Made by a program: the position numbers and the translations under genes
The notes under the pieces: generated by a model
What the model was told of the DNA's origin: nothing
The model's input: only the letters and a program-made list of their open reading frames with translations
Database searches by the model: none
Part shown: one piece after another, positions 22,831 through 50,960 of the stretch
Layout of the letters: every line of letters begins with the position of its first letter
How positions within the stretch are numbered: position 1 is the stretch's first letter
Assembly (NCBI GenBank): GCA_015231755.1
Contig: JADGAZ010000001.1
Location: forward strand, 1-64,000
From: Magnetococcales bacterium
GTDB lineage: Bacteria > Pseudomonadota > Magnetococcia > Magnetococcales > Magnetaquicoccaceae
Direction: 5' to 3'
DNA: 64,000 nucleotides

Positions 22831-22861
22831 GATCATCCGTGTTGCTGCAAAACGGATGATC
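22831..22861. promoter_or_regulatory. Perfect hairpin upstream of pyrG
   Basis: Ten-base arms GATCATCCGT and ACGGATGATC flank an 11-base loop, 44 bases before the pyrG start. It could be a leader hairpin for pyrG or an operator in the divergent region. There is no T-tract. Confidence 0.5.
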
Positions 22862-22947: not shown

Positions 22948-22976
22948 TTGACCCTGGTGTCCAGGTTTGTGATAAT
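22948..22976 (+). promoter_or_regulatory. Candidate sigma-70 promoter for the MucR-like gene
   Basis: TTGACC and GATAAT are separated by 17 bases, a near-consensus promoter. The -10 element ends 38 bases before the ATG at 23015, which has its own AGGAGG site. Confidence 0.65.
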
Positions 22977-23014
22977 GATGTGATTGTACTTATATCGCCG
23001 ACAAGGAGGGGGTC

Positions 23015-23683
23015 ATGCAAGGATTGGGTTTTTTGGGTCTGGTGTCGGTCCTTGGTTATATTGTCACCCGGATGGTGCTGGACAAACAAAGCGCCCCTCC
23101 CTCGGATCCGGGGCAATCCGCGCCATTGGCCACTTCCGGCGTCCATGCTCCGGCTCCCCAACCGGTGGTTTCGTCCCCCCCGGTCGTCTCCCCCAAGCCG
23201 GAACCCGTCCCTGTCGCCATCGAACCGGAAGCCGCTCCGGCTGTGGCCATGGCGCCTGAGCCGGAACCCGTCCCTGTCGCCATCGAACCGGAAGCCGCTC
23301 CGGCTGTGGCCATGGCGCCTGAGCCGGAACCCGTCCCTGTCGCCATCGAACCGGAAGCCGCTCCGGCTGTGGCCATGGCGCCTGAGCCGGAACCCGTCCC
23401 CCTGGAGCCGGAACCCGTCCCGGTCGATTCCGTCCCGGTTTTGCCGACCGTACCGGCGGTGCCGGTGGATCGGATCGTCACCGATCAGGGGATTGTCTGT
23501 TTGATTTGCGGTCAGACCTTCAAGGGATTGAAGGCCCATATCAACCGTACCCACAAGATCAGCGTGGAGGCGTATCGGGAGCAGTTCGGTCTGGATGAGC
23601 AGACCCCCATGTCCCCTCCCGTGGTGGCGTCGGCGGTGGCGGTGAAGAAAAATGGGAAAACTCCGGCCAGATCCGCCCCATGA
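23015..23683 (+). CDS. Membrane-anchored protein with Pro-rich repeats and Ros/MucR zinc finger
   Basis: A 222-residue protein with three parts. Residues about 3-21 (GLGFLGLVSVLGYIVTRMV) look like a membrane anchor. Residues about 30-150 are rich in Pro, Glu, Ala and Val and include three tandem 21-residue units. Residues about 158-195 match the Ros/MucR zinc-finger domain: VCLICGQTFKGLKAHINRTH supplies the Cys-x2-Cys and His ligands, and EAYREQFGL is the family's end motif. MucR proteins are normally soluble alphaproteobacterial DNA-binding regulators, so membrane tethering is odd. A strong AGGAGG site fixes the start. The last 125 bases overlap miaA on the other strand. Function is unknown. 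Confidence 0.8.
   Translation: MQGLGFLGLVSVLGYIVTRMVLDKQSAPPSDPGQSAPLATSGVHAPAPQPVVSSPPVVSPKPEPVPVAIEPEAAPAVAMAPEPEPVPVAIEPEAAPAVAMAPEPEPVPVAIEPEAAPAVAMAPEPEPVPLEPEPVPVDSVPVLPTVPAVPVDRIVTDQGIVCLICGQTFKGLKAHINRTHKISVEAYREQFGLDEQTPMSPPVVASAVAVKKNGKTPARSAP
23195..23383 (+). repeat. Three tandem 63-bp coding repeats
   Basis: Units at 23195-23257, 23258-23320 and 23321-23383 are almost identical and are followed by a partial fourth. Each encodes 21 residues of the PEPVPVAIEPEAAPAVAMAP type. They lie in the linker between the membrane anchor and the zinc finger. The copy number is likely to vary among relatives. Confidence 0.95.
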
Positions 23684-49432: not shown

Positions 49433-50215
49433 ATGGCGCGCAGGATGCTGATCGTCGGCAACTGGAAGATGAATGGGCTGATCGAAACCGCCCAGGATCT
49501 GGCAGAAGGCATTGTGACCGGGCTTTCCGTGCGGGCGGGACGGTCCGTGCGTTGCGAAGTGGTGTTGTGTCCTCCGGCAACGGCTTTGCATGCGGTGAAT
49601 CAACGCCTGGGAGGCTCCATGATCAAACTCGGGGGGCAGGATCTTTCCGAGTTTGAAAGCGGTCCTTGCACCGGCGAAATCTGCGGGCTGATGCTGCGCA
49701 ACGTGGGGTGCTGGTATGTGATCGTGGGGCATTCGGAGCGTCGCTCCGGCTGGGGAGAGGACAACCAACGGGTGGCCCGGAAAATGGCGGCGGCGTTCCG
49801 GGATGGTCTTCAGCCCATCGTCTGTGTGGGGGAAACCCTGGAAGAGCGGGAACAGGGACGCACCTTGGACGTGGTGCAGGCGCAGTTGGAGGCGTTGTTT
49901 CCCTGTTTGCCCGTCCAGTCCAGCAAGCGGCAGTTGCTGGTGGTGGCTTATGAGCCGGTCTGGGCGATCGGGAGTGGTCGCAATGCCCTGCCCGAACAGA
50001 TTCAGGAGGTGCATGGTTTCATCCGTGGCATCCTGCTGGAACGGTTGGGGGGAGATGGTCGCAAAATTCGTATCTTGTATGGTGGATCCGTCAAGGCGGG
50101 CAACGCGGGATCCGTGTTCGCGTTGGAGGATGTGGATGGCGGGTTGATCGGCGGGGCTTCGCTCAAGAGTGTTGATTTTCTCGCCATCATCGATGCGGTT
50201 CCGGAGAAGTTTTGA
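49433..50215 (+). CDS. tpiA: Triosephosphate isomerase
   Basis: A 260-residue TIM barrel enzyme interconverting dihydroxyacetone phosphate and glyceraldehyde 3-phosphate. The catalytic residues are seen: Lys in VGNWKMNGL, His in IVGHSERRS and Glu in VAYEPVWAIGSGR; phosphate loops are ILYGGSV and GGASLKS. It is followed by secG, a common order in proteobacteria. Confidence 0.98.
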   Translation: MARRMLIVGNWKMNGLIETAQDLAEGIVTGLSVRAGRSVRCEVVLCPPATALHAVNQRLGGSMIKLGGQDLSEFESGPCTGEICGLMLRNVGCWYVIVGHSERRSGWGEDNQRVARKMAAAFRDGLQPIVCVGETLEEREQGRTLDVVQAQLEALFPCLPVQSSKRQLLVVAYEPVWAIGSGRNALPEQIQEVHGFIRGILLERLGGDGRKIRILYGGSVKAGNAGSVFALEDVDGGLIGGASLKSVDFLAIIDAVPEKF

Positions 50216-50246
50216 TCGTTGGTTTTTTATTGAGAAGGGTTGCGCA

Positions 50247-50960
50247 ATGACTCTGATTTTGACGGTGGTGCATGTACTGGTCTGCATGGCATTGGTTTTT
50301 GTGGTGCTGTTGCAAAAAGGCAGTGGTGCGGATATGGGAGCCGCGTTCGGTGGCAGTTCTCAAAGCCTGTTCGGTGCCCGGGGTTCGGGAGATTTCTTAA
50401 GCAAGATGACGGCGGGTCTGGCCACGGTGTTCATGATCACCAGTCTGACCTTGGCCTTTTTTTCGACCCGTCCGGGAGTCGAGCGTTCGGTGATGGATGG
50501 TGCTCCGGTCTCTTCGACGGCCAAACCGGTTGCCGGCAAGGATGGCGCGGCGGCCAAGGCCAAGGAGTCGGGCAAGGAGAAGGCCGAGCCTGAATCCGGT
50601 CCTCCCGTCCCCGCCAAGAGCGCTCCCAAGAAACCCGCGGGCGAGGCCGCCCCGGCTGCGGGGGAAGCGGCTGCCCCGGCCAAACCGGTTCCGCCACCGC
50701 CCGCGTCCAGCCAGGATACGGCTGCCGCCAAGAAGCCCGAGCCTGTGAAGGATCCAGCCCCGGCGGTCAAAAAGCCCGAAGGGGAAGCCGCCAAGAAACC
50801 CGAGCCTGTGAAGGATCCAGCCCCGGCGGCCAAAAAGCCCGAAGGGGAAGCCGCCAAGAAGCCCGAAGGGGAAGCCGCCAAGAAGCCTGAGCCTGTGAAG
50901 GATCCGGCCCCGGCGGCCAAAAAGGAGCCGGAAGCTGCCGGTTCCAAGCCGTCTCCCTGA
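50247..50960 (+). CDS. secG: Preprotein translocase subunit SecG with long repeat tail
   Basis: A 237-residue SecG. The first 75 or so residues are normal: two membrane helices (about 2-22 and 50-72) joined by the conserved QKGSGADMGAAFGGSSQSLF. SecG is usually 75-120 residues; here another 150 residues of Ala/Pro/Lys/Glu-rich sequence follow, including repeats of the KKPEPVKDPAPAAKKPEGEA type. By SecG topology the tail should be periplasmic. The start at 50247 is the normal SecG start; the longer frame inside tpiA is rejected. Confidence 0.93.
   Translation: MTLILTVVHVLVCMALVFVVLLQKGSGADMGAAFGGSSQSLFGARGSGDFLSKMTAGLATVFMITSLTLAFFSTRPGVERSVMDGAPVSSTAKPVAGKDGAAAKAKESGKEKAEPESGPPVPAKSAPKKPAGEAAPAAGEAAAPAKPVPPPPASSQDTAAAKKPEPVKDPAPAVKKPEGEAAKKPEPVKDPAPAAKKPEGEAAKKPEGEAAKKPEPVKDPAPAAKKEPEAAGSKPSP
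50730..50930 (+). repeat. Tandem coding repeats in the SecG tail
   Basis: Three units of about 21 codons (KKPEPVKDPAPA followed by A/V-KKPEGEAA), with an extra KKPEGEAA half-unit before the last. The nucleotide sequence is conserved between units, so the expansion is probably recent. Confidence 0.9.

Follow-up and report, generated by a model that had tools for sequence, protein, structure and literature searches.

A Ros/MucR-type zinc finger on a proline-rich arm with a predicted membrane anchor in part of the Magnetococcales

The window analysed here is a stretch of 64,000 nucleotides from a Magnetococcales genome (contig JADGAZ010000001.1, positions 1 to 64,000; G000 in our genome comparison). 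It carries on the forward strand an open reading frame (ORF) of 222 amino acids, from the ATG at 23015 to the stop codon at 23681-23683. A Shine-Dalgarno sequence, AAGGAGG (23003-23009, forward strand), ends 5 nt before the ATG. An upstream alignment read by eye brings out a putative sigma70-like promoter, recognised by consensus only, TTGACC - 17 nt - GATAAT (22948-22976, forward strand). The promoter-like hexamers and their spacing are the same in four of the five aligned upstream regions, the fifth reading TTGACC-16-GATACA (also by eye). The divergent region upstream of pyrG also contains an inverted repeat at 22831-22861, with 15-nt arms that are 93% complementary, which is partly eroded in the related genome G030. 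At its 3′ end the ORF overlaps the convergent miaA gene, encoded on the opposite strand, by 125 bp (23559-23683). In relatives this overlap is 119 bp (G030) or about 8 bp (G027 and G032).

The product is composed of a predicted N-terminal membrane anchor (residues 4-26, 23024-23092; hydrophobic core at residues 4-22, first basic residue R19), a linker rich in Pro, Ala, Val and Glu (about residues 27-148, 23093-23458), a Ros/MucR C2H2 finger (residues 149-203, 23459-23623; C162, C165, H175 and H180) and a short, variable basic tail (residues 204-222, 23624-23680), all on the forward strand. The initial annotation had placed the ORF at exactly these coordinates and had described a membrane anchor joined by a Pro-rich linker to a Ros/MucR-type finger. 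This architecture was correct and is conserved across a clade, membrane insertion itself being a prediction. To judge from sequence comparison, the ORF is a real gene under selection, since the ratio of amino-acid to silent changes is low among its orthologues and it has a Shine-Dalgarno sequence and a conserved promoter-like site. In the comparison with G030, whose PyrG is 98% identical and which is the closest relative, pS and pN are 0.26 and 0.034 for the anchor and 0.24 and 0.054 for the finger. The G027-G032 pair differs by 4 changes in the anchor, all of them silent, and by 10 silent and 3 other changes in the finger; more distant pairs are closer to saturation. Judged from these alignments, the anchor and the finger are conserved and the linker is not.

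Assignment of the finger to the Ros/MucR family, as initially annotated, was borne out by several searches, none of which placed it elsewhere. The profile PF05443 matched residues 144-204 with E=1.3e-15 (58 bits for a cut-off of 25.4), and the sequence matched that of the Ros structure 2jsp with E=2.4e-9; the NCBIfam search of the protein returned no family. In an AlphaFold2 model computed from eight aligned members (overall pLDDT 64.8), the finger was confident, the blocks covering residues 161-190 having pLDDT 91-94. Foldseek gave Ros 2jsp (3.7e-4) as the sole match below 0.001, and the VIA-align comparison with 2jsp gave Z 6.4 and 2.0 A over 56 residues, the next row having 2.3. The finger thus shares with Ros of Agrobacterium, MucR of Brucella and Ml1-Ml5 the C2H2 core C-x2-C-x9-H-x4-H and the Ros fold.

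The literature presents the Ros/MucR family as DNA silencers that form oligomers and resemble H-NS (PMC11662661, PMC9779718). In the MucR complex reported in PMC11662661, Lys91 and Arg92 lie at the major groove, and a C-terminal helix with Arg126 and Arg128 lies at the minor groove; the Arg126/Arg128 region is important for DNA binding, and higher affinity needs oligomerisation through the N-terminal domain. As presented in that source and in PMC5693944, the MucRs studied need both their oligomerisation domain and their basic C-terminal helix to bind DNA with high affinity. The window protein differs from Ros/MucR in having neither of the two, and in having the anchor and the long linker. Its alignment to PF05443 starts only at profile position 49 of 123, hence the absence of the oligomerisation domain, while the one other Ros/MucR protein of the same genome, a soluble MucR, aligns over positions 1-123. 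The C-terminal helix is replaced by the tail. A YSxxRRxLA-type motif, which we defined post hoc from sequences already seen, is present as a C-terminal motif in all 34 soluble class members and in three alphaproteobacterial ones (3/3), and in none of the ten anchored fingers. These counts come from 53 distinct fingers at fetched loci fitting our finger pattern, a subset of all matches; three misfits were left out (the second GlgB finger of G001, at L073, the G011 fragment and L091). The G027 and G032 proteins stop straight after the finger fold and have no tail. The position equivalent to Lys91 is K or R in all ten anchored fingers, and the net charge of finger plus tail goes from +2 to +13 (positive in 10/10), compared with +2 to +15 in soluble members. 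Lack of the Arg92 contact was dropped as an argument against DNA binding: Gly also occupies this position in 31 of the 34 soluble class MucRs. By its sequence, the protein is not simply a MucR regulator plus an anchor. The initial reading of a MucR-type regulator holds as to the family; its role as a regulator is doubtful, given the loss of the oligomerisation domain and of the basic helix at the C terminus.

The anchor was examined by hydropathy, structure prediction and conservation. The best 19-residue mean is 1.92, at residues 4-22; 404 of 20,000 shuffled versions of residues 1-60 reached this value, as did 6 of the 55 ORFs of the window. Hydropathy alone is therefore insufficient for the claim of an anchor, which is carried by conservation in 13 genomes. 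AlphaFold2 gave a helix at residues 4-26, with block pLDDT of 79 and 91 over residues 1-20, and no topology prediction to the contrary was obtained. In all 13 anchors the first K or R is found at residue 19-20, and the 15-residue stretch starting at it holds 2-6 K/R. For G019 the count was made from the second possible start codon, the first one putting basic residues ahead of the helix too. Following the positive-inside rule, this pattern would give an N-out/C-in topology, so that linker and finger are predicted to be cytoplasmic.

The linker is predicted to be disordered from its composition and a pLDDT of about 50-60. Across nine members it measures 42-248 residues with a net charge of -35 to +11, and this variability in both length and charge makes it a spacer. 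The linker is acidic in the window protein (net -17) and in G030 (net -14), and basic in the f6 and f7 members (G008 and G013). In the window, the linker contains a tandem repeat with a period of 63 bp (23196-23400, forward strand; 3.3 copies, 100% identical), whose 21-residue unit, taken from the translation, is EPEPVPVAIEPEAAPAVAMAP. Since the Pro-rich linker of G030, of similar length, is devoid of this 63-bp array, the exact repeat arose or was homogenised after the two lines had separated; this comparison makes the array a recent one, and the conserved feature is not the repeat as such. The first description, of three almost identical, expanded repeats, was right in their number; they are in fact exactly identical, and the expansion holds for the window genome and is not general. 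The repeats seem to break assemblies, a gap or contig end falling within the linker in G009, G029 and G010. A second expanded Pro-rich repeat of the window is located at 50724-50939, in the long Lys/Pro/Ala/Glu repeat tail of a short membrane protein (50169-50960, forward strand), which resembles SecG.

A survey for homologues with the membrane helix found the anchor in 13 of the 48 genomes of the class (Magnetococcales), distributed over four families (f1, f6, f7 and f12). Anchor and finger are in one frame in nine of them (G000, G030, G028, G031, G027, G032, G013, G008 and G019). The other four are interrupted by contig ends, a gap or a rearranged end: in G009, anchor and finger flank a gap of 100 bases, the contigs of G029 and G010 stop after the anchor, and in G011 the anchor and a finger fragment are oppositely oriented near a contig end. 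Within the genus of the window genome, the gene is carried by all seven genomes that are at least 84% complete and by none of the four at 77% or less. Among these non-carriers, an orthologue of miaA was not found in G033 and G036 either, and ORFs resembling motor genes (by eye) come after miaA in G035. No anchor-matching member appeared outside the class among the matches listed for a 398-genome sample of the phylum, with up to 7 candidates scored per genome; this absence is a result of that sample. The six best relatives in named collections are metagenome-assembled genomes named Magnetococcales bacterium. A phage origin was rejected, as the 14 pattern matches in viral contigs included no relative by tblastn. 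Among the papers listed by searches of the open-licence PMC literature, none presents a membrane-anchored Ros/MucR protein in its title or in the opening of its abstract.

The order pyrG - finger gene - miaA is kept within the genus only (in G029, up to the contig end). None of the window neighbours was matched near the finger gene in G008, G013, G009 and G019; nearby ORFs outside the genus, assigned by eye, are leuC-like in G008 and of ABC, STAS and response-regulator types in G013. With a context conserved inside the genus only, the neighbours give no hint of a partner, and a conserved operon was rejected as a clue to function.

The finger is also found attached to other proteins of the class. 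Three glycogen branching enzymes (GlgB), two in G001 and one in G019, have it at their C terminus (L072:5014-7503, L073:4544-7078 and L075:4611-7268, all on the reverse strand), in the short kind without C-terminal basic helix. It is also C-terminal in a chorismate synthase (AroC) of G017 (L078:2315-3703, forward strand), where the basic helix is kept. A SNF2-type ATPase of G030 (L074:838-5760, forward strand; 1641 aa) has it at the N terminus, together with an RNA polymerase alpha C-terminal domain, and two DUF4379 treble-clef repeat proteins of G033 have it at the C-terminal end (L076:2316-4280, reverse strand; L077:1964-3358, forward strand). Both the AroC and the SNF2 fusion have the C-terminal motif, which the two GlgB and two zinc-ribbon fingers compared lack. 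In a finger tree, to which alone the L073 finger was added by hand, a weakly supported split (42/87) separates the anchored, GlgB and zinc-ribbon fingers from the soluble, AroC and SNF2 ones. The idea that the anchored fingers arose once, as a single clade, was not retained: the tree requires two changes for this group, its deep forks are weak and it is built on 58 columns, so that neither one nor two origins are established.

Two membrane proteins provide tested precedents for such a layout. ZipA of Escherichia coli is described as having six residues outside, one helix, a charged Pro/Gln-rich arm and a cytoplasmic globular domain (PMC6904479), which resembles the short outer N terminus, single helix, unstructured Pro-rich arm and cytoplasmic C-terminal domain predicted here. 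That domain is, however, a Ros-type finger and not an FtsZ-binding one, and no sequence kinship was seen; the ZipA FtsZ-binding domain was not found in a Pfam scan at E up to 1, which gave ROS_MUCR and weak zinc-finger matches only. ZitP of Caulobacter is reported to be a membrane-anchored zinc finger acting through protein binding, with PopZ as its partner (PMC5182065). The likeness is in a zinc finger fixed to the membrane, as predicted here, whereas the finger of ZitP has a different fold, being a zinc ribbon at the N terminus, with the transmembrane segment and DUF3426 behind it; neither this type of ribbon nor DUF3426 was found in the same scan. PopZ itself was rejected as partner: PF10691 reached the cut-off in 3 of the 48 class genomes (G040, G042 and G043) and in none of the 13 carriers, one of which, G030, has a sub-threshold match.

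Altogether we tentatively favour, at somewhat less than even chances, an inner-membrane tether of ZipA/ZitP-like build; its finger would dock a partner from the cytosol, a protein being more probable than DNA. A short uncharged N terminus would lie in the periplasm, the helix of residues 4-26 would cross the membrane once, and the flexible Pro-rich arm of roughly 120 residues would extend into the cytoplasm, where the stripped finger at its end would keep the partner near the membrane. Architecture, fold, conservation and absence of the two MucR parts come from computation. As to the ligand, we infer weakly that it is a protein, as for the ZitP finger and PopZ, rather than DNA to be silenced in the manner of MucR: the zinc site and the fold are retained in the finger, whereas the oligomerisation domain and the minor-groove helix are both missing, which makes protein binding likelier. 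Protein is ranked over DNA because the parts giving DNA affinity are absent and because the short finger is found on cytosolic enzymes.

A serious rival, with a rather smaller but still substantial chance of being right, is a membrane-to-nucleoid tether or membrane-bound silencer, which would bind AT-rich DNA and in which crowding at the membrane would supply the avidity otherwise due to the oligomerisation domain. The same features speak for it and against a protein-binding tether: a DNA-binding fold, the invariably basic Lys91 position, the positive charge of finger plus tail, the basic G008 and G013 linkers, and several basic tails; the failure of PopZ to reach the cut-off in carriers also weighs against protein tethering, and the predicted C-in topology would face the nucleoid. 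In addition, the tails of the window protein and of G030 read GKTPA, resembling QGRTPA, described as the minor-groove loop of H-NS (PMC5693944), although this is a lead only, from two close relatives. Opposed to DNA binding are the loss of the C-terminal basic helix in 10/10 anchored fingers despite the importance of the Arg126/Arg128 region, the oligomerisation required for higher affinity (both according to PMC11662661), the tailless G027 and G032 proteins, and the acidic linkers of the window protein and G030.

Two other readings are very improbable. One is a TonB-like topology, N-in and C-out, which would stretch the Pro-rich arm across the periplasm and keep the finger out of the cytoplasm. 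Repeats of Glu/Pro and Lys/Pro resemble the periplasmic linker of TonB, but the 13 anchors, without K/R before residue 19 and with 2-6 past the hydrophobic core, have the reverse of what N-in needs, and a Cys-based zinc site is suited to the cytoplasm. The other, raised in the initial annotation and without support in our data, is a stored regulator freed by proteolysis of the linker. A long disordered linker could be cut, and anchor and finger are separate conserved modules; nevertheless, no linker motif beyond proline bias is conserved in alignment A1, linker length and charge vary freely, and the freed piece would be devoid of the MucR oligomerisation domain and basic helix. That the ORF is decaying or non-coding, held open by a repeat whose 63-bp period is a multiple of three and opens several frames, and overlapping miaA by its 3′ end, is already disfavoured to the point of being negligible by the presence of orthologues across several families, the low rate of non-synonymous change in both anchor and finger and the conserved promoter-like site.

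Returning to a finger that docks a protein, we consider it unlikely, though worth stating, that Magnetococcales made the stripped finger a portable docking tag, a shared ligand gathering the membrane copy and the copies at the ends of metabolic enzymes such as GlgB; if so, a regulator domain would have been turned into a protein-sorting device. The protein sets a known finger in a new architecture, which is conserved within part of a single order: in some magnetotactic bacteria, the finger of soluble DNA-binding regulators is carried on a long flexible arm, seemingly fixed to the membrane, and has lost DNA-binding parts. A clade in which the fold is reduced to its zinc core, anchored to the membrane and added to enzymes may extend the use of this fold beyond DNA silencing; alternatively, a simple arm may serve to tether a nucleoid protein to the membrane. 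As finger, arm and anchor are separate modules, either meaning is directly testable.
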